DNA of 54,758 nt from Bacteroidales bacterium (lineage in GTDB: Bacteria > Bacteroidota > Bacteroidia > Bacteroidales > Bacteroidaceae): positions 1 to 54,758 of the forward strand of contig JALFUO010000099.1 of assembly GCA_022784065.1 (NCBI GenBank). Reading direction: 5' to 3'. This document shows, in pieces, positions 210 through 51,641 of the stretch. Position 1 is the first letter of the stretch. Every line of letters starts with the position of its first letter. Made by a program: the position numbers and the translations under genes. The notes beneath the pieces are model-generated. The model was not told the origin of the DNA. It did no database searches and worked only from the letters and a program-made list of their open reading frames with translations.

Positions 210-259
210 TGGCTGCGGTCGGTTCCCGCCCGCCCACACAGGGCAAGCAAAAAACAGAA

Positions 260-317
260 ATTTTCGTGCAAGCGAGCGCAATAGAGCCTGCTCATATTGC
301 CGAGCGCAGCCGAAAAT
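260..317. repeat. 58-bp imperfect hairpin repeat (GTGCAAGCGAG family)
   Basis: The unit begins ATTTTCG and ends CGAAAAT, with a central GAGCCTGCTC tip. Related copies lie at 6536, 15271, 15331, 15981, 16035, 16180, 34433, 51689 and 51746. It lies in a gene-free stretch (87-459) in which I see no coding region. Confidence 0.8.
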
Positions 318-459
318 ATGCAAAAAGTAAAGCATTTCTTCCTTACTTTTTACAGCAAATAGTATAATCGCAAAATTATCAGGCAGAAATTTTTTCCTTT
401 CACGGACCTAAATTTTCCTTCCTGCCTGAAAGTTTTTCCTGTCCTATAAGATATTTTTT

Positions 460-539
460 GTTACAAAGTTTGTAACACGTATTACAAACTTTGTAACATG
501 TGTTAGAAACTTTGTAACAAGCGTTACAAACTTTGTAAT
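460..539 (-). repeat. Array A: four 17-bp palindromes at 21-bp period
   Basis: Units start at 460, 481, 502 and 523, each a variant of GTTACAAACTTTGTAAC separated by 4-bp spacers (ACGT, ATGT, AAGC). Read on the minus strand, the array is preceded by CTGCGCAGA and an AT-rich stretch, and followed by a flank resembling TTATAGGACAGGAAAAA and TCAGGCAG. The same layout occurs at 15811-15890 and 50046-50146. Because 21 is divisible by 3, the minus strand stays open here (400-615) with Tyr-Lys-Val-Cys-like heptads. I treat that reading frame as a by-product of the repeat. Confidence 0.85.
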
Positions 540-658
540 AAAAATCTCCGCGCAGATAGTGGAAAATGTCTGCGCAGAGCGTAAAAAATAGCTCCGTGAC
601 AGTAAAAATTTTCAAGTAGATAGTTTAATGATCCCTATGGGATGGCCATTATTATAAT

Positions 659-14494: not shown

Positions 14495-14677
14495 CGTTTT
14501 TTTCTGAATTACTTCCCGCGAAGTTATGAAAAAGGGTGGGAGAGATAAGGGCGAATACTCTGTTTTTTGCCCCTTTCATCTATAAAATGAGCATTTCTGT
14601 CGAAATACATTAAACGATTTGGAGCATAAAGCGTCAAATAGATGTCACGATTGAAACGATTAAACCAACGAACAATT

Positions 14678-15178
14678 ATGAAAAAAGCATTTATGATGAT
14701 TGCCGCGCTTATCCTGATGGTAGCGCAGGCTAACGATGCCAATGCGCAGCGTCCCAGCATGGATCCCGAGATGCGTGCCGAGTTTGCCAAGATGGCGGCG
14801 CAGAAAGTGGCAGGCGAGTTGAAACTCGACAAGGCCGAGCGCGAATGGTTCGAACCGCTCTACATGGAATATGCCGACTCGCTGCGCAAGGCGCAGAAAA
14901 TCGACCTTCCCGAGAAGAACAAGGAGATTAAGGAAATGACCGACGATGATGCATTGGCGGCTGTTGAGAAGATGTTTGCCTCCCAAGAGCGTGCCCTTGC
15001 CGTGAAGCGTGCCTACTATGAGCGATTCAAGGAAAGGCTCACGCCGCAGCAACTCTTCCGACTCTTCCGTCCGAAAAACGAGCGTCGCCGCGCGGCTCAA
15101 GGACAAGGTCCGTTTGGTCCCGGTATGCCCCCGCCTCCGGGTATGGGTGGCGGTTTCCACGGCCGTCCCGGCTTCTAA
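14678..15178 (+). CDS. Small periplasmic LTxxQ-motif protein (Spy/CpxP-like)
   Basis: 166-aa exported protein with a signal peptide (cleavage after ANA near residue 23) and a helical body. LTPQQLFRLF (near residue 130) matches the LTxxQ motif of Spy/CpxP periplasmic proteins, which act as chaperones or stress sensors. The tail is Pro/Gly/Phe-rich (GPGMPPPPGMGGGF). The ATG at 14678 begins the signal peptide; an upstream in-frame ATG at 14642 would add 12 residues and spoil it. A Spy-like role is inferred from the motif only. Confidence 0.7.
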   Translation: MKKAFMMIAALILMVAQANDANAQRPSMDPEMRAEFAKMAAQKVAGELKLDKAEREWFEPLYMEYADSLRKAQKIDLPEKNKEIKEMTDDDALAAVEKMFASQERALAVKRAYYERFKERLTPQQLFRLFRPKNERRRAAQGQGPFGPGMPPPPGMGGGFHGRPGF

Positions 15179-15270: not shown

Positions 15271-15392
15271 ACGTTTGTGCAAGGCGAGCGCAGAGGCCAA
15301 GCTCGCTTGGACTATGCCGAGCCGCCGCTAATTTTCGTGCAAGCAAGTGCAGAGCCGAACTTGTTCGGGCTATGCCGAGCGCAGCCGAAAAT
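15271..15392. repeat. Two tandem GTGCAAG-family hairpin repeats
   Basis: A first, degenerate unit (about 15271-15325, tip GGCCAAGCTCGCTTGGACT) is followed by a full 62-bp unit (15331-15392, tip GAGCCGAACTTGTTCGGGCT). Each tip is self-complementary, although the tip sequences differ. Confidence 0.75.
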
Positions 15393-15653: not shown

Positions 15654-15810
15654 CCCGACACAGTCGCCCCTTTCCCGGGCGTATACGATACGCCCTTTTA
15701 CTGCCGATACGGTCGAAAATATCAAATTTTGAAGCAGCTATTTTTTGCTTGCTCCGAGCTATTTTTCCCTAAGTCCTGAATATTTTTTACTCTCTGCGCA
15801 GAAAAAGTTT

Positions 15811-15890
15811 GTTACAAAGTTTGTAACGCTTATTCAAAACTTTGGAATATATAATCAAAAGTTTTGAACATATATTCAAAAGTTTGGAAC
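15811..15890 (+). repeat. Array B: four 17-bp near-palindromes at 21-bp period
   Basis: Units start at 15811, 15832, 15853 and 15874. The first is GTTACAAAGTTTGTAAC; the rest drift to ATTCAAAACTTTGGAAT-like forms that stay roughly palindromic. Spacers are GCTT, ATAT, ATAT. It is preceded by CTGCGCAGAAAAAG and followed by TTATAGGAGAGGAAAAA and CTATCAGGCAG, as in arrays A and C. The 15179-16609 stretch around it contains no gene that I can support. Confidence 0.85.
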
Positions 15891-15980
15891 AAAAACTTTC
15901 TTATAGGAGAGGAAAAACTATCAGGCAGAAAAGAAAAATTTGCTTCGTGAGAGTGAACTTTTACTTGCTAACTGCCTGGA

Positions 15981-16092
15981 ATTTTCGTGCAATCGAGAGC
16001 AATCAAGTTTACTTGAATTGCCGAGTGCCGCCGAATTTTCGTGCAAGCGAGTGCAATAGAGCTTGCTCATATTGCCGAGTGCAGCCGAAAAT
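15981..16092. repeat. Two head-to-tail 58-bp hairpin repeats sharing a junction
   Basis: The first copy (15981-16038) has tip AATCAAGTTTACTTGAATT. The second (16035-16092) has tip ATAGAGCTTGCTCATAT. The CGAAAAT end of one merges into the ATTTTCG start of the next. Confidence 0.8.
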
Positions 16093-16179
16093 CTTGAAGA
16101 AAAAATCTCAATGAAATGGCAGTACGCCATTGGACATGCACTTACAACATTGTCACAGGCGTAGTGCCTCTTCTTTGAG

Positions 16180-16241
16180 ATTTTCGGCTGCGCTCGGTAG
16201 AGCCCGAACAAGTTCGGCTCTGCGCTCGCTTGCACGAAAAT
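16180..16241. repeat. 62-bp hairpin repeat, opposite orientation
   Basis: It starts ATTTTCGGCTGCGCTCGG and ends CTTGCACGAAAAT, with tip AGCCCGAACAAGTTCGGCT. It is inverted relative to the pair at 15981-16092. Confidence 0.8.
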
Positions 16242-16365
16242 TCCAGGCACATCGTCCTCGCCTCTTCTTTCCGAGCACTTCGTGCCCGGTTACCATCGCT
16301 TCGCTCTGTAGTGCCTTCCAGGCACAAAATGGTCAACCCATTTCATGACAAGGCACAACCCTTCA

Positions 16366-16609: not shown

Positions 16610-17236
16610 TTACCAAGTGGCGGTTTCGCTCAAGGTCTCAGGTTTGTTGTAAATATCCTCTTGCAGATATTCCTCCAATTTTTCTAATTGGGTGAATGTG
16701 GTGTGGCTGGTTATCATTGTGGAATTTGTTGCGGGCGAATTGTCGAGATAGGCGGAAAGATTAAGGCTGAAGTAGTAGAACTTTTCGTTGTTCTTGCTGA
16801 AGTTTTCCATCTTTGCTTTATTCGCCTTGATAGTTGCCGTAATTTTGTAAGCCGTGCCGTTGCCAACAGCGCAGGGGGGCGTGGCGAACCGGAATGTCTT
16901 TTCGAAATTATAAGGGTAAACCGCGTGGCTGGAAGATGATGCCCAGAGATTGCCCCAGAAGTCCGTTTTCTGGTTAAAAGAGTTGTCGTCGGCGGTGAGC
17001 ACGCGCTTCACTTCCTTGCCCGTGGCAAGGTCGGTGTAGCTCACTTCCACATCGGCAGCGGCTATCATGTCGGTAGAGGTGTACAAAAGGTACTGGAACT
17101 GCTTTGAAGTTGGTTTCGTCGGGGTGATGGTAGTGTTGCCGTTGCTGTTGTTGTCGTCGTCGTCGCCGCAGGCGGTTACTGTGCAGCAGAGCACGGCGCA
17201 GGCGAAGGCTAAGAGCCATTTGTTCAAGTTCTTCAT
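16610..17236 (-). CDS. Hypothetical lipoprotein, last gene of the surface operon
   Basis: 208-aa lipoprotein of unknown function. The SPII signal ends at Cys23 (TVTAC), followed by GDDDDNNSNG, an acidic surface-export-like tail, and a Thr/Pro/Lys linker. The rest has alternating polar and hydrophobic residues consistent with beta structure, for example FYYFSLNLSAYLDNS. I do not recognise the family. It lies 59 bp after the 5'-nucleotidase gene on the same strand. Confidence 0.75.
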   Translation of the reverse strand: MKNLNKWLLAFACAVLCCTVTACGDDDDNNSNGNTTITPTKPTSKQFQYLLYTSTDMIAAADVEVSYTDLATGKEVKRVLTADDNSFNQKTDFWGNLWASSSSHAVYPYNFEKTFRFATPPCAVGNGTAYKITATIKANKAKMENFSKNNEKFYYFSLNLSAYLDNSPATNSTMITSHTTFTQLEKLEEYLQEDIYNKPETLSETATW

Positions 17237-18989: not shown

Positions 18990-19823
18990 CTACCTTAGAT
19001 ACAGCGTGGTACCTCTGGCGGCTTTGAGGGTGAAGGGCAGGGTGGTGCGGTACACCTTGCCCTGCGCAGCGGAGTAGTAGGCGAGGGTGAGGGGCTCGTC
19101 GGGCGTGTGGGCGTAGACTTTGAGGCGATAGAGGCCGTCGGCAAGGCTTGCCACCGTGCCCCGGCACTCGCTGCCGCACATCACCGCCAGTTCGTCGCCG
19201 TCGCCGGGCGTGAAAGGCACGGTCTCGGGCAGGCGCACGCCGATGGTTTCGGCACAGGCGTAGGGACCGCCCTCGTCGAAAGCCGGCACGAGGTCTTCGT
19301 TGGACGCGAAGTCGCCGTCGGCTATCATTTCAAAGCAATTATTCACTGTGAACACGCGCTTCAGACGGGCGGAGTAGTATTTCAGGCTGACGGCAGCATC
19401 GCCCGTATTGCCGCGCAGGAACAGAAAGCCGAAGCACTCCTGCTTCTCTGCACCGTCCTCCTTGTAGAGATAAAGGTTGCACACGCCCCGGCACTCGTTG
19501 CCCACGAAGGCGGCAATCATGTCGTCCTCCGAGGCTGTGGGCATCAGGGCGGGGCAGAGCGTCACCAACCCCATCATGCTGCACTCGTAGGCTGTCATGT
19601 CGGGAGTTTGCCAAGCGGGGCGCTCGTCCGTGCCCTGCCACTGCACCGTCCAGTGCGGTGCTGCGGGTTGCGCGCTTTCGGTCAATCCGCCAGTCGTAGG
19701 CGTTTGCGGCGTTTCGGCCGTGGCGGGCGACGCGGGGTCGTCCGACCCGCATGCCGTTGCCGCAAAGAGCGGCAAGGCAAGCAGCAGGGAATAATAGAGA
19801 TGTTTTGTCAAACGGAAATTCAT
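18990..19823 (-). CDS. Lipoprotein with two ECRG modules, shared with the giant protein
   Basis: 277-aa lipoprotein (lipid Cys25, AATAC) with a Ser/Asp/Pro/Thr-rich linker to about residue 55. It contains two copies of a module also present in the adjacent giant protein: residues 68-165 (DDMIAAFVGNECRG at 100-113) and 205-277 (DELAVMCGSECRG at 210-222). Each is followed by an LxxYYSA phrase and an aromatic ending. Its ATG overlaps the giant gene's TGA (ATGA at 19823-19820), which suggests translational coupling. The module's function is unknown to me; a role in binding or anchoring at the cell surface is inference. Confidence 0.8.
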   Translation of the reverse strand: MNFRLTKHLYYSLLLALPLFAATACGSDDPASPATAETPQTPTTGGLTESAQPAAPHWTVQWQGTDERPAWQTPDMTAYECSMMGLVTLCPALMPTASEDDMIAAFVGNECRGVCNLYLYKEDGAEKQECFGFLFLRGNTGDAAVSLKYYSARLKRVFTVNNCFEMIADGDFASNEDLVPAFDEGGPYACAETIGVRLPETVPFTPGDGDELAVMCGSECRGTVASLADGLYRLKVYAHTPDEPLTLAYYSAAQGKVYRTTLPFTLKAARGTTLYLR

Positions 19824-22800
19824 TGTTTGATAAGTTTGAATGAATGGCTTTCGCCGTTATACGTAATCGTTGCGATATAAACGCCCTCGGCCAGTGCGGC
19901 GGCACCCACCCAGCGGTAGTTTGTGAGCGGAGCATCGGCCGTGGCCTGATAGCGGTGCACGAGCGTGCCGCCGAGGTTGTAGACGGCGAAGGTCACCTCC
20001 GTGCCTGCGGGTGCGGCTGCCGAGAAGTCGATGAACTTGTCGAAGGGGTTAGGTCCTGCCTTGCAGCCCGCTGCGGAGGCGAAGTTGATTTGCGTGGGCG
20101 CTAAGTACGTGCCGCTTACGGCGTTGACCGTATAGCCCACGGGGCTGGCGGTCTGTGCCACGGTGGTCTCGCCGCGCAGCAGTTCCATGCGCAGGGCTTC
20201 GGCCATGTCGCCGCCGATGCTGAGGTAGAAGCGTCCGTCGGGAGCGGCAGTTGCAATGCCGCGCAGTTCGCTGCCCGCGTAGGCGGCGAGGCGGTCGCCC
20301 GGTTCAAGATCGATGCCCGTCACCTGTGCCACCATTGTCATGCTGCTTGCATAGGGGTTGCGGAACGTTTCGCCGGTCTCCGTGCCGCGCATCTGCTGCG
20401 GCGAGGCGAGGGCATACGAACCGTTGGTTTGCAGCACGGGATAGGTGAATGAGGCAGGCGTGGCTGCGGTGCGCTTCATCATGTAGCCCTCGCCGGCTTT
20501 GAGGTAGGAGAGGTTGCCGCGCCAGAGGCGGTGGCCTGCGCCATCGTCGGAGAAGATGGCAAACTCGTTTTGCGACTTGATGATGTCGCCGTCGGCGGCT
20601 TCGTCGTAGTAGTCGGCGAGTGCCTCGCTAATCGGCAGGTTGACAATGGGCGTGAAGCCGATGCCGTTCCAACCGGGCAGCAGGTTGATGGTACATTCGT
20701 CGGTCTGTTGCAGCAAGAGGCCCGAGATGCGCATAGTTTGCGGCGTTCTCACCTTTATTTTGAAGAGGTGCTTGTTGTCCACGGGGATCTTTAGATCTTC
20801 TTCTTCTTTGTATGTAACTCTATCACCCTTTATGCAAGTGACAGCCTTGCCTATATTGAAATCCAATACGGTGTTTCTGTTCTCGGGCAGGAGGAGTTTA
20901 ATAACGTCGCCTAAGGTGTAGCTCTTGGTCTTGGATGGGCTCTTCACGGCGAAGGATACCCAGTTGCAGCCCGCGTGCAGCTGTATGCTCTGCTGCAAGA
21001 TGTCGCCGCCCTCGATGATAAGGGGATTCTGCAGCGTGCCGTGGAGGGCATTGGCGGCAAACTTAAACACCGTGCCGGGCTTGCCGTCCTCAGTGAGCAT
21101 GGCCTGATAGATAGCACCCGTGCCCGAGTCCCAAATGTAGAAGGTCAGGGGGTCTGCCGTTCCTGACGTGCCGTAGACAGTGAGGAACACGTGGCTGTCG
21201 CCTGTCACGTTGTCCACGGAGTTGTGGGCCACGCCGATACATTCCTTTCCGCAGAACACGCCCACCATATCGTCGGAGTCGGTAGAGATTTTGCCGTTGA
21301 TGCGGATTTGCCCGCAAATGTTCATGGAATTTTCGCTTTTGTCCATATTAACCGACCAGTCGGGACGGATGGGGTTCACCTTGATGGTGAGGGCGAGCGG
21401 CTCTGCCACGCCGTTGTCGTTCACGAGATAGATCACCTCGTCGTAGGTGCCGGGGTTGATGCTCTGGTTGATAGAGAACGAGATGTCCTGCGAGCCGAGC
21501 GCGGTCACGTTGCCCTCAATCGGGGTCACGGTGAGCCAGTCGGGCATACCCTCGAGGCGGAAGTGACGGCGTTTGCCGCCCTTGTTGTGGATAGTGGTGG
21601 TGAACTGCATGTATTCCTTCCACTCGTATTCGAACTCCTGCTTGATTTGGTTGTTCTCCCATTTCAGGTCGTTGCGGTTCACGTAAACCCACATCATCAC
21701 GGGACTGGCCATTTCGTTGCCGTTGAGGTCGGTCACGTCCTTCACGGTCACGTAGACCGTAGTGCCTTCAATCTCCTTGTCGGGAACGTCGAGGTTCACG
21801 ATGAGCTGGTCGTTCTTGGCGGCGTAGCTGAACTTCACGTTCTCTTTCAGTCCGAGGTCGCGCATCGGCGCGAAGTCCTTTTTGTCGGCCAGCATGGAGA
21901 CATCGCCGATGATGAGTGTGTCCACGCGGCTGGTGTAGTTGCCGAAGGGGTCCTTGTAGCGCTTGGCACTGAGCGGCGTGAAGGTAAGTTTATAAGTATT
22001 GTCCATCTGCTTTTCGCTGCGGCTGAACGGCAGCCATGCCACGAGTGCCATTTCGTCGCCGTTGGGGTTCACGTTGTAGATGTCGTTGATCACCGTAGGC
22101 GGCAGGGCGGCAGACCACAGCATCACGTCGTCGATGTTGCCCTCGAAGCGGTCGGTCACGTTGTCGGTGAAGCCGCCCTCCTCTGCTTCGGTGAGGGTGT
22201 GGCAGGCACCGATGTAGGTGCGCGGCGAACTGAAGCCGCCGAGCGAGTCGACTGCGAAGGTGGTCATTAGGGCGTTGTCCACGAAGATATTCACGAGGTT
22301 GCGCGGACGGTTCACGGTGAGGGCGTAGTGGTGCCACTGCCCGTCGCTGTAATCGCGGTCGATGCGTGCCTCATGCTTGCCGGAGCGGTAAACGGGACGG
22401 CCGTTTTCGAGACCGATATAGAACTTATTCTCCGCGTCGGTATCGGTGCTGTCCGCGCGGCCGTTGCAGAGGAGTGCCATCGTGTCGCGGCTGGCGGTCT
22501 TGAACCAGAAGGAGATGGTGTAGTCCTGCGTGGCGGTACGGCTGAAATAGCGTTCGTCGAGGTGGATGCCGTCGGCGGTGCCGTCGAGTTTCGCGCTCAT
22601 GCCCTTAGGCAGCGTCCACGAGGCGGCGTTGAGCAGGGCCGTTGCACCCTGACCCTTGTCGTGGAGCGTGGTGCCCGTGCCTTCGTTCATCGGATAGCAG
22701 TCCACCAGTCCGGCTTCGTAGCCGCTGAGGCGCTTGAAGCTCATTTGGTTCAGTTCGGCAGGACCGAGCACCTTGTTCCACAGGCGTGCTTCGAGCATAT

Positions 22801-25800
22801 TGCCCACATAGGCATCGCCCATTTCCTTGCCCGTCGGGTCGGCCGCGCCGAAGCACAGGCGACCCGTCTGCTTGTAGTCGGGAATGGTGTCGAGGTTGGC
22901 GGCGAGCGCCTTGTTGCCTTGGTAGAGCTTGAGGCGGTGCGTGCCGGCATCGTAGGTGGCGGCCAGCTGCGTGAAGCCCTTGAAGAGCAGTTGCTCATTG
23001 GAGGTGACGATGGCGGTGTCTTTGCCCAAAACAATGGCTTGCAGGCGGTTGTCGCCGGTGAGGCGCAGTGCGAAGTGCCCGTCATCGCCCGTGTGGCTGA
23101 AGAGCGTCATGTCGCGGTGCGTAGCCTCGGGATAGGCCAGCAATTCGATGGTGAAGTCCTTGTTGGAGAGGTTGCGCTTCACGTTGGTAGCGGCGTAGGT
23201 GCTGCCGTCGAAGTGGAGCGAGGTGCTCTGCGTGATTTCGCTGCTGTTGAGATAGCCCGTCACGTCGAAGTTGTTCACCTTGCTCAGATAGTTGCCGGCG
23301 ATGTCTTCGCTGAATATAATCTTGATGTCGTCGGTTGCCGTAAGCACGCCGTTGGCAGGCTGCGTGTTGCCGAAGGGTGCGGGGCGGCGCGTATCCTTCA
23401 CACCCGAGAGGACAGGCGTGGACGAGGTGACGAAGCCCGTGCCGTAGCGGCAGTAGGTCACGGCGCGGAGGTCGTAGAGCTGCTCCGTGGGATCGGTCTC
23501 GCCGAAGAAGCGCGCGCTGATGTAGCCGTTCGTGCCGAGCATCTCCTTCGTGCCGCCGGCAGCGGCATAGAGCGTGGAGTCGGCGTAGTAGCTGCAAATG
23601 TTCACCCAGTCCTTCTCGGGCTTGTTGGTGAGTTTGTATTGCAGTTCGATGTGGTCGAAACCGCGCTGGTTGACGTTATACTTGTCAATGCGCACGGGCA
23701 GGTAATAGCGTCCGTCTTCCTGCGGCGACTCGGTGTTCATCACCCACTTGTTTTCCGGCGTAGTGATATTGATTTCGCCCGCCGAAGGCACAAAGTGTGC
23801 GGAGATTGTGGCCTTGCTGTTCACCGTGGGATCGCAGCCCGATATGACTTGCAGGGTGAGGTCGTCGTAGTCGAAGTCCTGCCCTGCCCAAACTTCAAGC
23901 GTGCGGTAGGAAGCCTGTCCGGCAGGTATCACCATGGGATATCCGTCGGTAATGGCTTCGCCGTCGATCAGCACTTTTGCGCCCTTGGGGTTGTTGGAGA
24001 GATAGAGGTTGAAGCCCACTTGGTTCGGGTCGGGCACTTCCGCCTCGTTGGTGAAGCGCAGGTTGAAGATGGCAGGTTTGTCGATTGGCACATTGCTCAC
24101 GCTGCGTTGCTCCACGTGGATTACGGGTTTCTCTACCTGCTTCGTCTTTGCATTTATCACTGTACTGCTGTTATAATACTTAGGCTTGTACTCATCTTCA
24201 TAGGGGCAGCAGGTAGCACCGCCTACCGTGCGGAACACGATGCCGGAATAATATCGCGCATTTTTATCGTAAAACGAGGCAGCACCTCCGTTGTCGACCT
24301 CATCGTGTATATCCTGCATATAGCGGTCATACTCGTCGGTCTCCGCCGCCCAACCATTTTTAACATAGGAAGCGAGTGTATCGTGCTCCTCGACAGTGCG
24401 GTACACGTCCACCGTCAGATTGCTACGGCGGTTGGCACTTAGGGTATAGCTGATTGTGCGGCTGCGCGATGTAGTGTAAGAGCCGTTTGAAGGATTGCCG
24501 CAATTCATCTCTAATACCGGGATGAGACTCAGACTCAGTTTGTATCCGAAAAATTCCAGTTCAAAGCCTTTCGTTATATCCTTCCAAGCAGAACTCCGTT
24601 TGTCAAATTTCTTCATCCATTTGCTAATGAACCCTAAACCGCTCAAAGAAGGCAATTCCGCTTTCAGGGCCGTTGGCGTGATGACATACCTCGAGGTATT
24701 GACATCGCCTTGGTAGGTTTCAGAATAACTGATCGGCGCTTCGCCGCTAAACGAAATAGTGTTGATTTTCTCGGATACACAGACTTTCTCCATTTCGTTC
24801 TGAGCAAGGAAACCAATCCAAGTCATGATGCTTTTATTGATATTGTACACCTTGTCATAACGCGTCTCTGACTGATAATTATCTGGTTCGATAATCATAT
24901 AGCTTACGGTGTCGCAAGTGGTGTTGTAAGTCAGAATGGAGTCTTCACCAGCTACAACTATTGAGTTAAGACTGCCGAAATCTTTATCTCCAACGGGCTT
25001 GCAACTCCAATATACTGGTGCTTTCAGTTTCTCTGCCATTTGCTTGGCTTCTGCGTGAGTGCCAGTGAAGAGCAGTTGGTCACGCTGCGCAACCAAGTTG
25101 GGAATCAAGGTCTTTTCAATATAATAGCCGGTATAGACGAAATCTGTGGTAATGTCGTTCCCCACATTGTAACTCTCATCGCTCACCAAATAGTATTTGT
25201 TACCATTCTCTGCAACGGAAGAACTTATCACTTTCAGGGTTTTGCCCAATTCGCTACCGCGCATCTGCTGATACATCTTGTCGTCGATAGCACGGACGCT
25301 CAACATCGGCGTAATAACCATAGCCTGCATTGCGCCGATATATACGTCAGCGTCTTTACCGACCATAGCTTGCGAACTGCTGGTGGAGATATCGGTAGAG
25401 GTTGATATCTTAAGCGTAGTGTTCTTGTCTACATGATAGCCCGAAATGAGATCAAGGTTATAACCAGCTGATTTATTGGTATTGTAATAATCGCCGTATA
25501 CAGCTGGTGCGGCAGTCACACCGGAAAATTTGTTAAATCCCCCTCCGGAGGTAAGGCCAACTTTTATTCCAGCTTTTATATCTAAATTATACTTGTAGGA
25601 ATAACTATAAGAGGCACCTTGCTTTAAAGTTGATTTACTACCCGAACCGGGAGGATCGCGCAAAATATCCAACAGGCAGGCATTAGGCTCGCTGGTAATG
25701 ATCTTACCGCCGGGCTTCTGCTTGCCGCCCAGTACATAGGCACGAAGCACATCGGACTCAATCGTGCGGTTTTCTAACGTTGCAGAAATGGAAAAACTGC

Positions 25801-28800
25801 GTAAGGCATCGGTACCCGTTTGCGTGTAGGTCACATTGGTGACAGGTACCTGTATCTTGCTCTTGCCGAGGCTGTCCAGTGTTACAGTTACATCTTTGTT
25901 CTCTGCATAGAAACCATTATGCACCTTCACTTTCGTGCCTGCCAACGGACTGGAAGAGTATTTGCCAAGAACATCGTTGTTATAATAGTAGTCCTCGTGC
26001 GCCGAAACTTCAAAGGCATAGAAGTCGCCGGCTTGGAACACGGGATAACCGAAGGTATAGGTCTTGGCATTCGCATCATAGAGCGGCACGGTGGCTTTGT
26101 TGCCAGCCATATTGGCGGCATCGTACTTCAGCATACCGAAATAGCCCTGTTTGTCGAAGTTTATTTGCTTGTAGGTGATCTTTGCTTCGCTGCGATAGAT
26201 GCGGTCGTAGAGGGCGTTGTAGCTGACGGTGTCGGTCAGGGTGTCTTTATCTGCCACGTAGGTTGCCGTGGAGTCTACCAGCTCGAGGGCGCCCGTGAGG
26301 TCGAGCGTCTCGCCCACTTTGCCCTCCTGGAAGAGCGTGGTGTAGCCTTCGGCGGAAGCCTCTACCACCTTGTATTGCACGGGATAGAGTTCGGCGATGT
26401 ATTCGCCCGTCTGCTCGTTGGGGCGAATGATGATGCGGTGGCGCTCATAGTCCACGGTGTTGCTGTAAGCCGCGTTGAGGTGGGTGAACTCCTTGTGGCG
26501 CGTGCGCACCTCGTCGTCCAGTTGGTCTTTCACAATCCAAGAGGTGTTGTCGCCCTCGAGCTGAAGCACGAGGCGCAGGCTGTCGCCGAGGTTGTTGGTC
26601 GAGAGGGAGCGGCCGAGGGGTTTGCCGCCTTCGGTCATGCCGCCCACCATGCGTCCCATGAGTTTCACCTTGGTCTCGTCCCAGAAGCGCACCTCATAGA
26701 CGGGACGCTCGAAGTTGTAGTATTTGTCGCCCTCCTCGTCGAGCAGGTAACCGTTGTTCATAAAGGTGTGCCCGTCCTTGACGACCTGTACGGTGTTTAC
26801 GCCGCGCGGCACGTAAAACTCAAACTCGCCCTGTTCGTTGGTGGTAACGGCCTTGCCGTTGCGCTGCAATTCGCTTCCGTTGATGAGGAAGCTGGCATGG
26901 CGCACGGGAATGCTCGAACCTTCGTAGAGCACCGTACCGCTCAACATATAATAAGAGGTGAGGTCGAAGTTGTAGTTGTTCTTCTCGTAGTTCGTACCAT
27001 CGAAGGTGACGCTGATGCCGCCGTCGGGCGAGAACTTCTGCCCCGTGGCCGACTGTGGCGTTAGGGTGTATGTGGTTTCGCCTTGGACAGGCAGACCGCT
27101 GATGCGGTAGTAACCCGTCTCGTTGGTGAGGCCTTTGTACCAAAGTTTGTCTGTGCCCAATCCGTTATCTGAAGCCATGCCTCCTTTCAGGTCTTTCTCT
27201 TCGCAGTTATAATAAGTTTTACCGTCTATTACTTGCGTGCCCATATCGGTACGCCTGCGATATACGATACCGTCCATATGCTGCACATCGTATTCGCCGT
27301 GTTTGGTATAGTCGGCTATGCGCTTGCTCAAGGGATTGCTGGCACTGAAATCGTGTTCGTCGAAACGCCAGTAAAGCATCAACCCATTCTCTGATCCGCC
27401 CAGGATGCGCGAATAGTTCTGCTTGATTTCCGAAGGCGAAAGTGCCCTGTTCCACAGGCGTACATCATCATACACGCACCTGCCGTGCATCAGATAATTA
27501 TCTAATGCAATGAGTTGTCGATTGTTGAGGAATGTTGCTTCGCCACCAAGCTCCAGATAGGCAGGCTGACCAGTGCCAGCGGGCTTCACCGTGCTCTTCA
27601 TCAATGCATTGATCTCACCATTTAGATAAATCTTAATACTATCGGTACCTGCATCGTATGTTGCCGTAAGATGATAGAAAGTTTTGGAATAGATATCTTC
27701 CCCCGCAGATGCCAAAACGGATTCCCCTTCGCTGCCGCGCACTTTGAAAGATTTACTATATCTAAAGGTATTATACCATTCATGAGGTTGAAGTTGCAAC
27801 TTATAATCTCCGAAGCGAAAGAGTGTTATCTCGTTTCTAATATCTTGCGGCTTCACCCACATTTGAACCGTGAAACTCTGGGGTTGGGGCGTTGTGTTTT
27901 CGCTGGCTAAATAGTAGGACGTTGCATTAGCCGCAGTGCCGTCTAAGATGGCAACTTTATTACCATCAACCAGAGACTCCCCATCCACCACGACTTCCAC
28001 ATTAGGCACGCCGTTGCCGTCGGGGAAGCGCACGTAGCCATCCACGGTACCCGTGGCAGAGGCATAGCCGTAGCAGGTGTTGCTAATGTTTTCAATCACC
28101 GTGGCATTGCACTCGCAAATCGCCTTTACGCGATATTCGTAGAGCGTGCCCGGCGTGATGCGTGTGTCGGTGTAGAACTGTTCGGTAAGGTTAGAGGCAA
28201 CAACCTGCCATGTCTCGCCATATAGCGTGTACTTGCGGCGCTCCAAGGTGTAGCGGTCAATAGTGCCGCCGTCAGCTCCCCATTGAAGATTTACCTTGTT
28301 GCTGTAATAACCGCGAGAGGCTTGCAGGTTTTCCACCTTTCCCGCAGAGTCATAATAGAACTTATCCTTAATATGATAAGTTTCCAAACTCCAATCCATG
28401 ACGTGCAGCCTGGTTAACTGCCCAGATCCTTCTTGAGGCACGCACCACAATTTGAAATCCTTGTATTGCATGCAGGGGCGTTCCAGCAGTACCTCTATAG
28501 AGTCGCCCGAGAGCAAATCTTCAAGGCTGATGTCTTGGCTGAATTCTGCCGTCTTTTGGTTGCCCTCGGCATCTTTATAAAGGCCTTGATAGTTTAACAC
28601 CCATTTGGCAACCTCTTCGTTCCAAATAACATCTACATACGCTTTTTTACCTCTTATAGAAGTCGAATCTTTTAGACTTATGTTTTCCTTCGGAACCAAG
28701 AAAAGTGCCGTATGGTTTTTATCCCAATCCTTCGATTTGTTGAGTACGGGAGAGTAATAAGTAGGGGTGATGAAACCATAGGTGTAGAGCAGGGTAAGCG

Positions 28801-30136
28801 AATCGGTTGCCCAACCCCTATTGCTCCATATCTGCGAAGAACTACGCGCTATGCGATAATAAGCCTTCGGGTAATCGGTATTCCAATCTGAACTTTTTTT
28901 ATTGTAATGCTGCAGCAACACATTAGAAGAATCTTTAAGCGTGTATTCTGCCTCGCCGTTTTCAAGAGTAAAAGTCCCGATAGACTCTGCATCTGAAAAG
29001 TCGGGACTGAAAGCGCGTTCCACCTCCACAAAGTCAATATTGTCCCAAATATCCTTGCCTTCCGGGCGGTCTATCGTAAATTTCAGATTGACAGAACCCT
29101 GATTGTCAAACGCCATGACCGGAGCTTCCGCAAACTTAATCTGCCGATAAGAAGGAATATAGGCATAAGGAGCCGACTCCGTGAGCGTGGGATTGCTTCC
29201 CGAATTGTACTTATAGTTCCCCTTGATCTTGAAATTATAGTATTCCTTGTCGGCATCAAGATAGATGGTGCCGAAGTTGTTGGCGGGCGTTTCGGTAACG
29301 GCCATCGTTCTCTGCGGTCCTCTGATGCTATCTTCATTCCAGGTACACGAGATATTGCCCGTAAGGCTTTGGGTGGTGTAATAATTCACGGCGATCTTGT
29401 TGGGATGCAGGTCGTCGGTAGAGAGCATCGGGTCTAAAATATTGATAATCGTCTCCTGTTCCGCAATGGTAAAAGTCATAGTTGATAGCAGGCGGTTGGG
29501 ATTATCGCTTGCGCCGGAACATTCATAACGGGCAATAAGCTGAACATCTGTTGCACCTGCCATTTCCACAGGCGCGAACCATTCCAATTCGGCAGACACC
29601 TGTCCGCTGTGCACCTTATTGTTAATCCAACAGGCGGTCTGCTGCGTATCGCTACTGCTCAACGTATAGTTGGACGAACCACGGAACGTGTTATTTTTCT
29701 TGGAGGTGAAAGTGCCAGAATAACCATTTGTGACGATTACTGTGCCTTTCAAGGCCTGAATACCGCACCAAAGCGCATCTGCTTCTTTGTTGTTATCATA
29801 ATCATGGGCATATCCAGAGGTGCCGTGATTGATGACATTCTTTGCCTCGTCATCGTCATATGAAGAACCTGAACGCAAAAATAGCAGTGATTCTACTTTT
29901 TGGTTCTTGTTAGCATCGGTGTACTTTGCTATAACAGTCAGTTTTTCCACATAATAATGCCGACTACCCCAGTCGTCGAACATGATTTTCATCTTGATTG
30001 ACGACTGCGAACTGCCTTGATAGGCCATCATCGCACCTTCTTTGTTAATGAAGTCCTCAGCAAAGGTTGCCACAGGCAGGCAAAGCAGCCATAGGAATAG
30101 GCTGATACGCCATAATGATGTGTTGATACGTTTCAT
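19820..30136 (-). CDS. Giant multidomain T9SS-secreted surface protein (3438 aa)
   Basis: Very large exported protein. A signal peptide covers residues 1-25 (ATFA). Recognisable parts, with approximate positions: fibronectin-III-like and CarboxypepD-regulatory-like stretch 620-740; first LamG/concanavalin-like domain 750-930; second LamG 2305-2485; third LamG 2510-2700; a module with DDMVGVFCGKECIG near 2960; a GCNWVSF segment near 3060; a second weaker module (DRLAAYAGSELRG) near 3285; and a T9SS type A C-terminal sorting domain 3355-3438 ending NGESHSFKLIKQ. The long middle (about 1500-2200) is unassigned. A surface adhesin or glycan-binding role is inferred from the LamG domains. No catalytic motif is recognised. 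The frame is intact over 10.3 kb. Confidence 0.9.
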   Translation of the reverse strand: MKRINTSLWRISLFLWLLCLPVATFAEDFINKEGAMMAYQGSSQSSIKMKIMFDDWGSRHYYVEKLTVIAKYTDANKNQKVESLLFLRSGSSYDDDEAKNVINHGTSGYAHDYDNNKEADALWCGIQALKGTVIVTNGYSGTFTSKKNNTFRGSSNYTLSSSDTQQTACWINNKVHSGQVSAELEWFAPVEMAGATDVQLIARYECSGASDNPNRLLSTMTFTIAEQETIINILDPMLSTDDLHPNKIAVNYYTTQSLTGNISCTWNEDSIRGPQRTMAVTETPANNFGTIYLDADKEYYNFKIKGNYKYNSGSNPTLTESAPYAYIPSYRQIKFAEAPVMAFDNQGSVNLKFTIDRPEGKDIWDNIDFVEVERAFSPDFSDAESIGTFTLENGEAEYTLKDSSNVLLQHYNKKSSDWNTDYPKAYYRIARSSSQIWSNRGWATDSLTLLYTYGFITPTYYSPVLNKSKDWDKNHTALFLVPKENISLKDSTSIRGKKAYVDVIWNEEVAKWVLNYQGLYKDAEGNQKTAEFSQDISLEDLLSGDSIEVLLERPCMQYKDFKLWCVPQEGSGQLTRLHVMDWSLETYHIKDKFYYDSAGKVENLQASRGYYSNKVNLQWGADGGTIDRYTLERRKYTLYGETWQVVASNLTEQFYTDTRITPGTLYEYRVKAICECNATVIENISNTCYGYASATGTVDGYVRFPDGNGVPNVEVVVDGESLVDGNKVAILDGTAANATSYYLASENTTPQPQSFTVQMWVKPQDIRNEITLFRFGDYKLQLQPHEWYNTFRYSKSFKVRGSEGESVLASAGEDIYSKTFYHLTATYDAGTDSIKIYLNGEINALMKSTVKPAGTGQPAYLELGGEATFLNNRQLIALDNYLMHGRCVYDDVRLWNRALSPSEIKQNYSRILGGSENGLMLYWRFDEHDFSASNPLSKRIADYTKHGEYDVQHMDGIVYRRRTDMGTQVIDGKTYYNCEEKDLKGGMASDNGLGTDKLWYKGLTNETGYYRISGLPVQGETTYTLTPQSATGQKFSPDGGISVTFDGTNYEKNNYNFDLTSYYMLSGTVLYEGSSIPVRHASFLINGSELQRNGKAVTTNEQGEFEFYVPRGVNTVQVVKDGHTFMNNGYLLDEEGDKYYNFERPVYEVRFWDETKVKLMGRMVGGMTEGGKPLGRSLSTNNLGDSLRLVLQLEGDNTSWIVKDQLDDEVRTRHKEFTHLNAAYSNTVDYERHRIIIRPNEQTGEYIAELYPVQYKVVEASAEGYTTLFQEGKVGETLDLTGALELVDSTATYVADKDTLTDTVSYNALYDRIYRSEAKITYKQINFDKQGYFGMLKYDAANMAGNKATVPLYDANAKTYTFGYPVFQAGDFYAFEVSAHEDYYYNNDVLGKYSSSPLAGTKVKVHNGFYAENKDVTVTLDSLGKSKIQVPVTNVTYTQTGTDALRSFSISATLENRTIESDVLRAYVLGGKQKPGGKIITSEPNACLLDILRDPPGSGSKSTLKQGASYSYSYKYNLDIKAGIKVGLTSGGGFNKFSGVTAAPAVYGDYYNTNKSAGYNLDLISGYHVDKNTTLKISTSTDISTSSSQAMVGKDADVYIGAMQAMVITPMLSVRAIDDKMYQQMRGSELGKTLKVISSSVAENGNKYYLVSDESYNVGNDITTDFVYTGYYIEKTLIPNLVAQRDQLLFTGTHAEAKQMAEKLKAPVYWSCKPVGDKDFGSLNSIVVAGEDSILTYNTTCDTVSYMIIEPDNYQSETRYDKVYNINKSIMTWIGFLAQNEMEKVCVSEKINTISFSGEAPISYSETYQGDVNTSRYVITPTALKAELPSLSGLGFISKWMKKFDKRSSAWKDITKGFELEFFGYKLSLSLIPVLEMNCGNPSNGSYTTSRSRTISYTLSANRRSNLTVDVYRTVEEHDTLASYVKNGWAAETDEYDRYMQDIHDEVDNGGAASFYDKNARYYSGIVFRTVGGATCCPYEDEYKPKYYNSSTVINAKTKQVEKPVIHVEQRSVSNVPIDKPAIFNLRFTNEAEVPDPNQVGFNLYLSNNPKGAKVLIDGEAITDGYPMVIPAGQASYRTLEVWAGQDFDYDDLTLQVISGCDPTVNSKATISAHFVPSAGEINITTPENKWVMNTESPQEDGRYYLPVRIDKYNVNQRGFDHIELQYKLTNKPEKDWVNICSYYADSTLYAAAGGTKEMLGTNGYISARFFGETDPTEQLYDLRAVTYCRYGTGFVTSSTPVLSGVKDTRRPAPFGNTQPANGVLTATDDIKIIFSEDIAGNYLSKVNNFDVTGYLNSSEITQSTSLHFDGSTYAATNVKRNLSNKDFTIELLAYPEATHRDMTLFSHTGDDGHFALRLTGDNRLQAIVLGKDTAIVTSNEQLLFKGFTQLAATYDAGTHRLKLYQGNKALAANLDTIPDYKQTGRLCFGAADPTGKEMGDAYVGNMLEARLWNKVLGPAELNQMSFKRLSGYEAGLVDCYPMNEGTGTTLHDKGQGATALLNAASWTLPKGMSAKLDGTADGIHLDERYFSRTATQDYTISFWFKTASRDTMALLCNGRADSTDTDAENKFYIGLENGRPVYRSGKHEARIDRDYSDGQWHHYALTVNRPRNLVNIFVDNALMTTFAVDSLGGFSSPRTYIGACHTLTEAEEGGFTDNVTDRFEGNIDDVMLWSAALPPTVINDIYNVNPNGDEMALVAWLPFSRSEKQMDNTYKLTFTPLSAKRYKDPFGNYTSRVDTLIIGDVSMLADKKDFAPMRDLGLKENVKFSYAAKNDQLIVNLDVPDKEIEGTTVYVTVKDVTDLNGNEMASPVMMWVYVNRNDLKWENNQIKQEFEYEWKEYMQFTTTIHNKGGKRRHFRLEGMPDWLTVTPIEGNVTALGSQDISFSINQSINPGTYDEVIYLVNDNGVAEPLALTIKVNPIRPDWSVNMDKSENSMNICGQIRINGKISTDSDDMVGVFCGKECIGVAHNSVDNVTGDSHVFLTVYGTSGTADPLTFYIWDSGTGAIYQAMLTEDGKPGTVFKFAANALHGTLQNPLIIEGGDILQQSIQLHAGCNWVSFAVKSPSKTKSYTLGDVIKLLLPENRNTVLDFNIGKAVTCIKGDRVTYKEEEDLKIPVDNKHLFKIKVRTPQTMRISGLLLQQTDECTINLLPGWNGIGFTPIVNLPISEALADYYDEAADGDIIKSQNEFAIFSDDGAGHRLWRGNLSYLKAGEGYMMKRTAATPASFTYPVLQTNGSYALASPQQMRGTETGETFRNPYASSMTMVAQVTGIDLEPGDRLAAYAGSELRGIATAAPDGRFYLSIGGDMAEALRMELLRGETTVAQTASPVGYTVNAVSGTYLAPTQINFASAAGCKAGPNPFDKFIDFSAAAPAGTEVTFAVYNLGGTLVHRYQATADAPLTNYRWVGAAALAEGVYIATITYNGESHSFKLIKQ

Positions 30137-47241: not shown

Positions 47242-49836
47242 ATGAAATTCGACAACTTCACCATCAAGTCCCAAGAGGCCGTGCAGCACGCCATCGACCG
47301 CGCGCAGGCCTTAGGGCATCAGGCCATCGGCTGCGCCCATCTGCTTTCGGGCGTGCTGGCGGCTGGCGAGAACGTCACGCAGTTTCTCTTCGGCAAGACG
47401 GGCGTGCAGGAGCCGGTGCTCCGCCGCGCCCTCGACAGCCAGTTGCAGAGCCTGCCGCGCGTGAGCGGCGGCGAACCTTATCTCGATCGCGAGGCCAACG
47501 AGGCCCTCAGCCGCGCCACCGCTGAGGCGCAGAAAATGGGCGACCAGTTCGTGACGCTCGAAGCCCTCCTGCTCGCCCTCCTGCTCACCAAGAGCACGAC
47601 GGCACAGATTTTGAAAGATGCCGGCCTCTCCGAGCAAGCCCTGCGACAGGCCATCAAGGAACTGCGCGGCGGGCAGAAAGCAGCCTCACAAGGGTCAGAA
47701 GATACTTATCAGGCGTTGGCGAAATACGCCCGCAACCTCGTGAACGAGGCGCGCGAAGGCAAACTCGACCCCGTTATCGGGCGCGACGAAGAGATACGCC
47801 GCGTGCTGCAAATCCTCTCGCGCCGCACCAAGAACAACCCCATTCTCATCGGCGAGCCAGGCACGGGCAAAACGGCCATCGTGGAGGGACTGGCGCAGCG
47901 CATCGTGCGCGGCGACGTGCCGGAGAACCTGAAAAACAAGCAGCTCTACTCTCTCGACATGGGCGCACTCGTGGCAGGCGCGAAGTATAAGGGAGAATTT
48001 GAGGAACGCCTCAAAAGCGTCATCAACGAAGTGACGCAGGCCGAGGGCGGTATCATTCTCTTCATCGACGAAATCCACACGCTCGTCGGGGCGGGCAAGA
48101 GCGAGGGCGCAATGGACGCAGCCAATATCCTCAAGCCCGCGCTGGCACGCGGCGAACTGCGCAGCATCGGTGCCACCACTTTGGAGGAATATCAGAAGTA
48201 TTTCGAAAAAGATAAGGCCCTCGAGCGCCGCTTCCAGACGGTCACGGTGGACGAGCCTACGCCCGAAGACGCCATTTCTATTCTGCGCGGTCTGAAAGAG
48301 AAGTATGAGAACCATCACCACGTGCGTATTCAGGACGATGCCATTATCGCCGCCGTGAACCTTTCCCACCGCTACATCAATGAGCGTTTCCTGCCCGACA
48401 AGGCCATCGACCTCATGGATGAGGCGGCTGCCAAACTCCGCATGGAGCGCGACTCGCAGCCCGAGGAACTCGACGAAATCACGCGCCGCCTGCGCCAGCT
48501 CGAAATCGAGCGCGAGGCCATCAAGCGCGAAAACGATGAGCAGAAACTCGAAGGCCTCAACCGCGAAATCTCCGATTTGCAGGAGCGCGAAAAATCCCTC
48601 CGCGCCAAGTGGGAGGGCGAGAAAGAACTCCTCTCCCGCATTCAGGCGGACAAGGAACAGGCGGAGCACCTCAAGTTTGAGGCAGAGCGTGCCGAGCGCG
48701 AGGGCGACTATGGGCGCGTGGCTGAAATACGCTACGGCCAGCTCAAAGCCCTCGGCGACGACATTGCCCGCGTGCAGCAGCAACTGCGGGAACGGCAGGG
48801 CGCGGAGGCGATGGTCAAGGAAGAGGTCACGCCCGACGACATTGCCGACGTGGTGAGCCGCTGGACGGGCATACCCGTGAGCAAGATGCTCGCAGGCGAG
48901 CGCGAGAAACTCCTCCACCTCGAAGAAGAGTTGCACCGCCGCGTTGTGGGGCAGGACGAGGCCATACGCGCCGTGAGCGACGCCGTGCGCCGCAGCCGCG
49001 CCGGACTGCAAGACCCCAAGCGCCCCATCGGCTCCTTCATCTTCCTCGGCAGCACGGGCGTTGGCAAAACGGAACTGGCAAAGGCCCTCGCCGACTATCT
49101 CTTCAACGACGAGAACATGATGACCCGCATCGACATGTCGGAATACCAGGAAAAGTTCAGCGTGTCGCGCCTCGTCGGTGCGCCTCCGGGCTACGTGGGC
49201 TACGACGAGGGCGGCCAGCTCACTGAGGCCGTGCGCCGCAAGCCTTACAGCGTGGTGCTGTTCGATGAAATAGAGAAGGCGCACCCCGACGTGTTCAACA
49301 TTCTCCTGCAAGTGCTCGACGACGGCCGCCTCACCGACAACAAGGGACGTACCGTCAACTTCAAGAACACCATCATCATCATGACCTCCAACCTCGGCTC
49401 GCAGTTCATTCAGAGCAAGCTGGAAGGCCTCGCCCCAAGCGGCGCCGGGCGCGAACGCGCCTTGGAAGAAGCCAAGGAGGGCGTTATGGAGCTCCTGAAG
49501 AAGACCATTCGTCCCGAGTTCCTCAACCGTATCGACGACATCATCATGTTCAGCCCGCTCACCGAGCCTGAAATCCGTCAGATCGTGCGCCTGCAAATCG
49601 ATGCCATCGTGCGCCGCTTGCAGTCGCAGGAGGTCAGCCTTACGGTCGACGAGAGCGCAGTAGGCCTCATCGCCTCTGCCGGCTTCGACCCCGAGTTTGG
49701 CGCGCGCCCCGTGAAGCGTGCCTTGCAGCGCCTCTTGCTCAACGACCTCAGCCGCGCCCTGCTCGGTGGCACGGTGGACCGCCGCCGGCCCATCCGCGTC
49801 ACGGCGCACGGCGATGCGTTGGAGTTTAAGAATTAA
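47242..49836 (+). CDS. clpB: ClpB disaggregase chaperone
   Basis: Hexameric AAA+ chaperone that, with DnaK, threads and rescues aggregated proteins; cytosolic. The 864-aa chain has an N-terminal Clp-N repeat domain (1-145), NBD1 with Walker A GEPGTGKT (204-211), a long coiled-coil middle domain (about 400-525) that marks ClpB as opposed to ClpA/C, NBD2 with GSTGVGKT (603-610), and a C-terminal small domain. The start ATG at 47242 gives the usual [14 protein letters not shown]. It is monocistronic with a terminator 20 bp after the stop. No CIRCE element is seen upstream. Confidence 0.98.
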
Positions 49837-49898: not shown

Positions 49899-50045
49899 CT
49901 TTGCATTTGGCCGCGACTATCTGCCAAGAGCCGCGATGCTTCCTGCTGTGATCCGCGACGCTTCCTGCCGAGACAATTTTTCCTTTCTCCTTGATATTTT
50001 TCTCTATCAGCAAGCAATTTTTTCCTTTCTGCGCAGATATTTTTT

Positions 50046-50146
50046 GTTACAAACTTTGTAACGCTTATTACAAACTTTGTAATACGTGTTACAAACTTTC
50101 TAACACATGTTACAAACTTTCTAACACATGTTACAAAGTTTGTAAC
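50046..50146 (+). repeat. Array C: five 17-bp palindromes at 21-bp period
   Basis: Units start at 50046, 50067, 50088, 50109 and 50130 (GTTACAAACTTTGTAAC and close variants). Spacers are GCTT, ACGT, ACAT, ACAT. It is preceded by CTGCGCAGATATTTTTT and followed by AAAAACTTTCTTAT, ATGACAGGAAAAA and ATCAGCAAGCAA. It lies between the terminators of convergent clpB and the MATE gene. The rest of 49899-50234 shows no gene. Confidence 0.9.
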
Positions 50147-50234
50147 AAAAACTTTCTTATATGACAGGAAAAAATATCAGCAAGCAAATAAAAAATAGCT
50201 TGGAAAAAGTGAAAACTATAAAGGGGGAAATAAA

Positions 50235-50306: not shown

Positions 50307-51641
50307 TTAATGTAATTTTCCTAAAACCTTATAGAAACGCCCCGCGTAAAGCACGGCGGCGCAAAGCAGGCCGCCCGTGAAGGCGAAATAGAGGCCGCGA
50401 ATGCCGAAGCCGAGGGGAAAGGCGAGGAGATAGCCCAAGGGAATGTTGACCAAGATGTAGCTGACGAAGGCAATCCACATCATCGACACCACGTGCGACG
50501 TGCCGCGCAGGGCGTTGGCAAAGCAGGTTTGCATGCTGTCGGCAAACTGGTAGAGGGCAAGGGGAAAGAGCAGCGTGGCTGCCATAGCCAAAACCGCTTC
50601 ATCGCTGGTGAAGAATCGCAAAAGGCTGTCGCCGAAACCGAGAAATACGCCCGCCGCCACCGTGGCAGAAGCAAGCAACAACACTACGCCGGCACGCGTG
50701 GCGGGACGCACGGCGGCGAGGTTGCCCGCACCGATGAAACCGGCAATCCTGATGCTCATCGCCGCGCCGAAACTGTAATACACCAAAAATCCGAGCGTGC
50801 TGATGGTCACCATCACTTGATAAGCCGCCAGCTCCGTAACGCCCAGCCAGCCTGCCATGATGCAGCTGACGGTGAACGCGCCGGTCTCCATACCGAGCTG
50901 CAAGGCCACGGGTACGGACTGCCTATGCATGGCGCGGCGCATCGACGGGGTGGGGCGCACGGCGGCGAGCCCAAGCCGTGCCTGCCGGTAGCGTTTGCCC
51001 TGCCACACGTAGGCGCAGATGGCAAGTGCCATGAACACGCGTGCGGCAAGCGTGGCAACGCCTGCTCCCGTAAGTCCCCATTCGGGGAAAGGGCCGACGC
51101 CGTAAATCAGCAGGTAGTTGAGCAGAATGTTGAGGGCGTTGCCGATGAGCAGCACCCACATGCCCGCCGCGGTGTCGGTAAACGCGTCGGTGAATTGCCG
51201 CACAAGGTTGAACAGCATCACGAAGGGCATTGAGGCGAGTATCAGGAGATAGTAGGGGCGGATGAGCGGCAGGAGTTCAGCGGGTTGTCCGAGCCACGGC
51301 AGCAAGATGAACACGGCTGCGCAGAGGAGCATGATGAGTGCCGTGAAGCTCGCCCCGCTCTGCAAGGCTGTGTGCAGCACGCTGCCGCCGCTGCGTGCGC
51401 TGCCCCTGCCGAGGCAGCCCGACACGAGGGGCGTAAGTCCGTAGGAATAGCCCAGGAGGAGCATGGTGACGAGGTTGAACAGATTGTTCACGAACGAGGC
51501 GGCCGCCAAAGCGGAGGTGGCGTAGCGCCCCACCATCATCGTGTCGGCAAATCCGAGAATAATCACCCCAACCTGACCGATAGCAATGGGCAGGCCGATG
51601 CGTAGGGTTTCGGAGCAATGGCGATGGGGAGAAAAATGCAT
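50307..51641 (-). CDS. MATE-family multidrug/toxin efflux transporter
   Basis: 444-aa inner-membrane antiporter that exports organic cations or drugs using Na+ or H+. About 12 hydrophobic segments form two MatE repeats. The first repeat starts with LRIGLPIAIGQVGVIILGFAD and MMVGRYATSALAAASFVNN, and the second with SVPVALQLGMETGAF. The family length is normal. It is monocistronic, convergent with clpB and followed by its own terminator. The substrate is not predictable. Confidence 0.93.
   Translation of the reverse strand: MHFSPHRHCSETLRIGLPIAIGQVGVIILGFADTMMVGRYATSALAAASFVNNLFNLVTMLLLGYSYGLTPLVSGCLGRGSARSGGSVLHTALQSGASFTALIMLLCAAVFILLPWLGQPAELLPLIRPYYLLILASMPFVMLFNLVRQFTDAFTDTAAGMWVLLIGNALNILLNYLLIYGVGPFPEWGLTGAGVATLAARVFMALAICAYVWQGKRYRQARLGLAAVRPTPSMRRAMHRQSVPVALQLGMETGAFTVSCIMAGWLGVTELAAYQVMVTISTLGFLVYYSFGAAMSIRIAGFIGAGNLAAVRPATRAGVVLLLASATVAAGVFLGFGDSLLRFFTSDEAVLAMAATLLFPLALYQFADSMQTCFANALRGTSHVVSMMWIAFVSYILVNIPLGYLLAFPLGFGIRGLYFAFTGGLLCAAVLYAGRFYKVLGKLH

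Follow-up and report, generated by a model that had tools for sequence, protein, structure and literature searches.

What is an array of five tandem palindromes, recurring with a period of 21 bp, doing between a clpB and a transporter gene in a bacterium of the order Bacteroidales? The window, i.e. the whole stretch of 54,758 nucleotides analyzed here, holds two more arrays of this kind, and a preliminary description made from the letters alone had set the three apart as a repeat fitting no known type. Direct reading recovered all three arrays at the positions and with the unit counts (four, four, and five) given in that description (Table 1, cores of elements A, B, and C), as well as its unit of a 17-bp palindrome followed by a 4-bp spacer. 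The period of 21 dominates the window, with a best self-identity over 84 bases of 0.87; no other period between 15 and 29 exceeds 0.63. The original observation is real, but it understates what the sequence contains: the three arrays are copies of a single non-coding DNA element that is dispersed in the genome. It spans about 252 bp and consists of four core palindromes (17+4 bp each) and typically four further 21-bp units on each side, which continue the register of the core and which we term the arms. The conserved flanks that had been reported beside the arrays (CTGCGCAGA, TTATAGGACAGGAAAAA, and ATCAGGCAG) are present, but they are themselves arm units in the 21-bp register. The earlier suggestion that a step of two helical turns places all units on the same face of the DNA is supported.

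Table 1. Elements, their parts, and neighboring features in the window
Feature	Positions	Strand	Remarks
Element A	372..623	-	12 units; L202
Left arm of A	540-623	-	
Core of A with last spacer	456-539	-	
Right arm of A	372-455	-	
Core of A	460..539	-	four 21-bp palindromic units
ResB / cytochrome c assembly gene	659-2929	+	starts 35 bp past end of element A
Element B	15727..15978	+	12 units; L203
Core of B	15811..15890	+	four units; units 2-4 drifted, type ATTCAAAACTTTGGAAT
Gene flanking B	14642-15178	+	without Pfam match
Gene flanking B	16610-17236	-	without Pfam match
Element C	49962..50234	+	13 units, as core has five; L204
Core of C	50046..50146	+	five units
Innermost left arm unit of C	50025..50045	+	CTTTCTGCGCAGATATTTTTT
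Innermost right arm unit of C	50151..50171	+	ACTTTCTTATATGACAGGAAA
clpB, one flank of C	47242-49836	+	
MatE transporter gene, other flank of C	50307-51641	-	
Second dispersed repeat, near A	~241-330		
Second dispersed repeat, near B	15330-15390, 15985-16095, 16180-16245		
Very long open frame	19820-30136	-	3438 aa; codon use coding-like

The genome hosting the window is an 85% complete draft whose 103 contigs add up to 2,228,181 bases; the nearest matches of its ClpB (80%) among the contigs searched are from an uncultured Bacteroidales genome and Prevotellamassilia timonensis. A pattern of two consecutive units matched this genome 110 times in the forward and 108 times in the reverse direction, with no matches in either direction for the reversed control. 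From these matches and those of a sequence model built from 34 elements (R1), we collected at least 84 element places, each taken with about 0.9 kb per side where the contig permitted; the prospect that the repeat might be confined to the three loci of the window, raised at the outset, is thereby removed. Eighty-one of these places pass the core score, 79 of them having at least four core units and two being partial, and the remaining three lack a core. The number of core units is nearly fixed: it is exactly four in 75 of the 79 elements, five in three, and six in one, and at least one of the counts above four (the five of L229) is due to a lenient threshold. A pattern for the flanks occurs at 24 forward and 19 reverse places in the host and at one in another genome of its genus (G005).

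The elements lie between genes. With genes called by codon usage after training on the window, no element among the 79 shares more than 60 bp with a predicted gene, and the 39 elements with genes on both sides fall between 9 convergent, 11 divergent, and 19 tandem pairs, so that the preference for convergent pairs that had been considered is absent. A search with the window's element as DNA gave no match among plasmids or phages. A second dispersed repeat (AATTTTCGTGCAAGCGAGTGCA ... GCCGAGCGCAGCCGAAAAT) is found close to elements A and B, where it occurs in either orientation, and pieces of it also adjoin the elements L215, L239, and L220.

The elements are also spaced more evenly than expected by chance, the effect being moderate. 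Sixteen of 57 contigs carry two or more elements and yield 22 gaps with a mean of 20 kb. When positions were redrawn uniformly within each contig, 5.6 gaps shorter than 5 kb were expected and none was observed (P 0.0008), and the coefficient of variation of the same gaps was 0.42 as against an expected 0.77 (P 0.0002). For 20 elements the contig ends no more than 700 bp away, and the test was therefore rerun with these either kept fixed (P 0.004 for short gaps and 0.0003 for the coefficient of variation) or removed, which left 15 gaps (P 0.019 and 0.017, respectively). Recombinational loss of closely placed repeats could also yield such even spacing.

The internal organization of the element combines rigid geometry with variable letters. 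Core units are of the type RTTACAAASTTTGTAAY followed by the 4-bp spacer, and the hexamers at the spacers alternate between pyrimidine and purine (YRYRYR) in 188 of 242 cases. At the four outer positions of the hexamer there are only 0 or 1 transversions among the 242, the changes being almost exclusively transitions, as against 27 and 37 transversions at the two central positions. The fixed order of spacers claimed earlier (GCTT, then ACGT or ATAT, then ACAT) dissolves in the larger set, being found in only 3 of the 75 four-unit elements. Each element tends to hold an imperfect site: a half-site altered at the fifth pair is present at least once in 74 of these 75 elements and exactly once in 46, and 89 of the 111 altered half-sites (TTTCTAA or TTGCTAA type) face the center. 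Arm units follow a pattern such as CTATC-AGCAA-GATATTTTTTA, in which TC and GA enclose a word and a T-tract follows, with the T-tracts pointing toward the core on both sides. The words that recur form a small set, including TCTGCGCAG, TCCGCAAGA, TCAGCAAGA, and TCTCCTTGA; 15 nine-letter words account for 256 of 613 arm units, with 276 distinct words overall, and most of the commonest recur in both arms and at more than one position. The element is polar, having CTGCGCA as the innermost left word in 38 of the 79 elements and, read on the opposite strand, CCTATAA or CATATAA as the innermost right word in 46.

We then surveyed related genomes with R1 and with a broader model, R2, built from 12 cores of 9 genomes, applying stricter filters and keeping the best candidates per genome. 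The exact two-unit pattern is present in only one of the 58 genomes of the genus, the host itself, and was not found in the other 57. R1 matched at least 16 of 249 genomes including the host (at least 15 of 248 others) and R2 at least 10 of 295 (at least 9 of 294 others). The 12 cores align mostly as RTTNCA-N5-TGNAAY with a period of 21. At least one locus was viewed in each of the 15 other genomes matched by R1, and in six of these four 21-bp palindromes of other letters recur, namely TTCCAAAGTTTGGAA in G148, the ATTTCAAACTTTGAAAT type in G173, which belongs to another family, GTTCCACACTGTGGAAT in G070, GTTCCACAATGTGGAAT in G100, GTTGCTAAATTAGCAAC in G118, and GTTCCAAAGGATGGAAT in G096. The plan is best developed in G148, from another genus of the same family, where all 14 loci detected at E-values up to 0.01 have four consecutive units with 7-8 of 8 motif letters, as against at most 6 in the neighboring units; when the cut is loosened, 7 of these arrays count as five units. 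The flanks in G148 are likewise polar and in 21-bp register, with AAAGTTT-type tracts. Four clean units were seen in 4 of 15 examined loci (19 places in all) in G173 and in 3 of 7 (9 places) in G070. Two genomes of the host's genus, G018 and G020, have three 21-bp palindromes each, and G112 is irregular. The remaining genomes have 22-bp repeats (G064, G092) or longer arrays (G179, G247), or are without an array (G074, G045); among the R1 loci, L176, L180, L181, and L184 hold repeats of 22 bp or more that may be unrelated, L183 is irregular, and L185 and L186 are not arrays. The distribution of the array family is thus patchy. Separately, a locus of G005 (L132) has three 21-bp units of the type CTGTCGCTGCGACTGTTTTTC and the arm syntax TC-N5-GA plus T-tract with other words, and 23-bp tandem repeats of other sequence lie just 3' of clpB in other Bacteroidales (L059, L065, L073, L092). 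Short-period intergenic arrays may be common across the order.

Many contigs of the draft end near an element, in ten cases from the end of an insertion sequence (TGTCTTTTCCTGATTTTACTAGACAC...). This end is IS3-like and has 11 copies in the host, of which 10 adjoin an element with the named end facing inward. It lies outside the element, 3-5 bp (modulo 21) past the last unit: six copies are 3, 3, 4, 5, 3, and 5 bp from the end of the twelve units, and three others, at 24, 26, and -17, correspond to one unit more or fewer. The tenth, beside a partial element whose core was missed (L200), was scored at -39; by eye, 3 bp separate it from the four arm units present there. The eleventh (C73, L280) has no array alongside and faces a diverged second copy of the same end. 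As to the possibility that the flanks match a transposon end, which the preliminary description had entertained, such an end does adjoin ten elements but lies outside them. The assembly covers only 266 bp of the insertion sequence in one copy and no more than 141 bp in the others. The C73 copy encodes the 37-aa end of a transposase, which aligns weakly with an IS3-family transposase of Parabacteroides distasonis (13/36 identical, E 1e-5); the terminal repeat beside the latter gene matches the host's end in 24 of 26 letters.

In P. distasonis this similar end adjoins the last of five GTTT...AAAC units with a 22-bp period, and the insertion has AAA on both sides. Nine P. distasonis records together have 22 matches to this type of array, one of them beneath an annotated gene. 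The five that we viewed, all from a single strain, have four to five tandem units each; four lie between annotated genes and the fifth (L289) extends up to a gene start. These arrays resemble those of the host in being tandem palindromes, and an insertion-sequence end of the same type adjoins one of them, but they differ in the 22-bp period, a variable center (self-identity at period 22 of 0.50-0.62), A- or T-rich 4-bp spacers, and having no recognized arms. Three other IS3 relatives, from Bacteroidales plasmid records (L290-L292), showed no array beside their likely ends in the stretches viewed, the ends of L290 and L291 being only partly recognized; the preference for arrays may be confined to this IS3 subgroup. 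Searched as DNA against 393 genomes of the order, the insertion-sequence end recovered only the host and one weak 34-base match, and its generality therefore rests on the host and the one P. distasonis copy.

The element shares features with several known systems. Iterons of plasmid origins also present protein sites about two helical turns apart, and the half-site GTTTCA of some relatives resembles the half-site of parS; unlike either of these systems, the element is present in tens of dispersed chromosomal copies, and unlike parS its half-sites are 5 bp apart. CRISPR arrays have near-identical repeats separated by unrelated spacers of some 25-40 bp; the spacers of the element, 4 bp long and constrained, do not fit this layout. 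REP/BIME sequences offer a close likeness: the element is dispersed, intergenic, palindromic, present in many copies, and a target of insertion sequences, though it differs from them in its strict 21-bp register, four palindromes per core, and phased arms. The IS3-family elements IS1397, ISKpn1, and ISPsy8 are described as inserting within REPs (PMC1525189), whereas here the insertion is at the outer edge of the element and in register. The REP head is given as GT(A/G)G (PMC2817692), and inspection by eye of our unit and spacer tables revealed no head of the GTAG/GTGG type beside the palindromes. Mobilization by a RAYT-type transposase is less supported, as the presence of the Y1 domain (PF01797) fails to track the arrays. 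The host has a single match, at C18:31331-31642, and of the arrays listed the nearest is 13 kb away; matches were found in 5 of 7 array-bearing genomes (two weak, and none in G173 and G096) and also in 6 of the 9 genomes of the genus in which no arrays were detected. In G148, one of the 14 arrays has a Y1 gene about 0.75 kb away (L345, C74:51400-54200), which is the sole RAYT-like arrangement seen.

That the arrays might act as structured RNA, a possibility raised in the preliminary description, for instance as a bidirectional terminator or an mRNA-stabilizing hairpin array, deserves consideration because the core folds far below shuffled sequences, with mean z-scores of -7.0 and -7.1 on the two strands over 60 of the 75 elements (-10.1 and -10.0 for the whole element). 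Moreover, the outermost adjacent units are complementary more often than units taken across elements: among 57 elements (18 of the 75, judged to be subfamily members, were dropped) and 66 unit pairs tried, units 6 and 7 have a complementary run of at least 8 in 18% versus 4% (z 5.6) and units -4 and -3 reach z 3.9, which makes terminator-like hairpins in some copies. However, the two strands fold equally, as expected of DNA palindromes, and the arms (z -1.8 to -2.5) barely exceed the stretches further out that partly overlap them (-1.3 to -1.9). No consistent covariation emerged within arm units in the 613 of 632 tested, where the signals were scattered and weak (best z 3.5, for one pair) and several were negative; hairpins within arm units are rejected as the rule. 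The elements show no preference among gene orientations, and no Rfam family matched the window at gathering scores. Given the equal folding, the lack of consistent arm covariation, and the lack of an Rfam match, we read the element as DNA and consider the RNA interpretation improbable. Strong curvature of that DNA was also rejected: a wedge model gives only a slight excess, with an end-to-end/contour ratio of 0.772 against 0.805 for flanks and 0.818 for shuffles.

The main rival to a protein-binding site is a MITE, that is, a non-autonomous transposon with arms as degenerate terminal repeats, mobilized by a transposase in trans, whose units would be transposase sites or a captured minisatellite akin to BrickBuilt. 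BrickBuilt, a MITE of Porphyromonas gingivalis, is reported to have a 23-nt unit in 1 to 22.8 repeats and IS5-like terminal inverted repeats in some copies (PMC4596501); it shares with our element the order Bacteroidales, intergenic placement, a short-period tandem repeat, and a differing leader and tail, but not the unit sequence, the near-fixed unit number, the continuation of a 21-bp period through the arms, or the absence of a shared terminal sequence. The dispersal over at least 84 intergenic places, the mirror-like syntax of the two arms, the patchy distribution, and the absence of a gene-orientation preference would all suit a MITE. So would the outer flanks: of 17 copies displayed, about a dozen share by eye the start of the left arm and some 20-50 bp beyond it, and about as many share the right arm and flank, which suggests that a longer stretch was duplicated to give some of them. 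Against this, no shared terminal sequence was found outside the units, where column information, which reaches 1.67 bits in the outermost units, does not exceed 0.39 bits to the left of the element or 0.22 to its right. Nor were target site duplications found on both sides outside the element, at offsets from -60 to +60 and lengths of 3-9 (best five offsets per length). The unit number is fixed while arm words vary between copies, the copies are evenly spaced, and the insertion-sequence end, lying outside the element, is beside just 10 of the 79-84 copies. An ordinary MITE is hence less supported, though it retains a real if minor share of the probability. The alternative of a neutral minisatellite spread by gene conversion draws on the tandem units and on words common to different positions and arms, but it sits poorly with exactly four core units in 75 of 79 elements here and four strong units in 14 of 14 arrays in G148, as against the range given for BrickBuilt (PMC4596501), and with the constrained register, T-tracts, YR spacers, and insertion-sequence ends in register; we hold it to be as improbable as the RNA interpretation.

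We favor, at about even odds of being right, the proposal that the arrays belong to a dispersed, non-coding, REP/BIME-like DNA element serving as a phased docking platform for a putative dimeric protein. A site for an oligomeric DNA-binding protein, as first suggested, remains the best reading of the near-fixed, phased palindromes. Four palindromes set two helical turns apart could seat four dimeric proteins along one face of the helix, and the near-constancy of their number at this step, despite drift of the letters, fits cooperative seating of four dimers. As the arms continue the register, the assembly may extend over about four further units each way, up to a defined edge, with the differing innermost arm words marking the polarity of the element. 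The assembled complex, or the sharp edge of the phased DNA itself, might then be recognized by the IS3-like transposase, which inserts past the last unit. The even spacing further suggests a chromosome-scale role, such as the organization of domains or supercoils. Several observations weigh against this proposal: the slight excess of curvature, the patchy distribution, the smaller share of arrays with four clean units in G173 and G070, the five-unit counts in G148 under the looser cut, the outer flank shared by about a dozen copies, and the other possible origin of the even spacing. Whereas the architecture, copy number, intergenic placement, spacing, recurrence in other genera, and register of the insertion-sequence ends are observed, we infer a bound protein, its dimeric form, its spreading along the arms, and any chromosomal role.

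The recurrence of the same geometry with differing letters in different genera also points to a DNA-binding protein. We more tentatively propose that these elements represent a new class of chromosome-organizing sites in Bacteroidales. Each would be a platform of four dyads flanked by phased arms, set at even distances from the next and occupied by an oligomeric protein particular to the lineage. The letters recognized by this protein would have changed under a fixed geometry (four sites, 21 bp, two-turn register), and the edge of the assembled platform would serve as a landing mark for an IS3-like element. We found no description of this repeat in the open-access literature searched. It perhaps reveals a chromosome-organizing system in a major order of gut and oral bacteria, in which the insertion-sequence ends may serve as a natural footprint of the boundary of the site.
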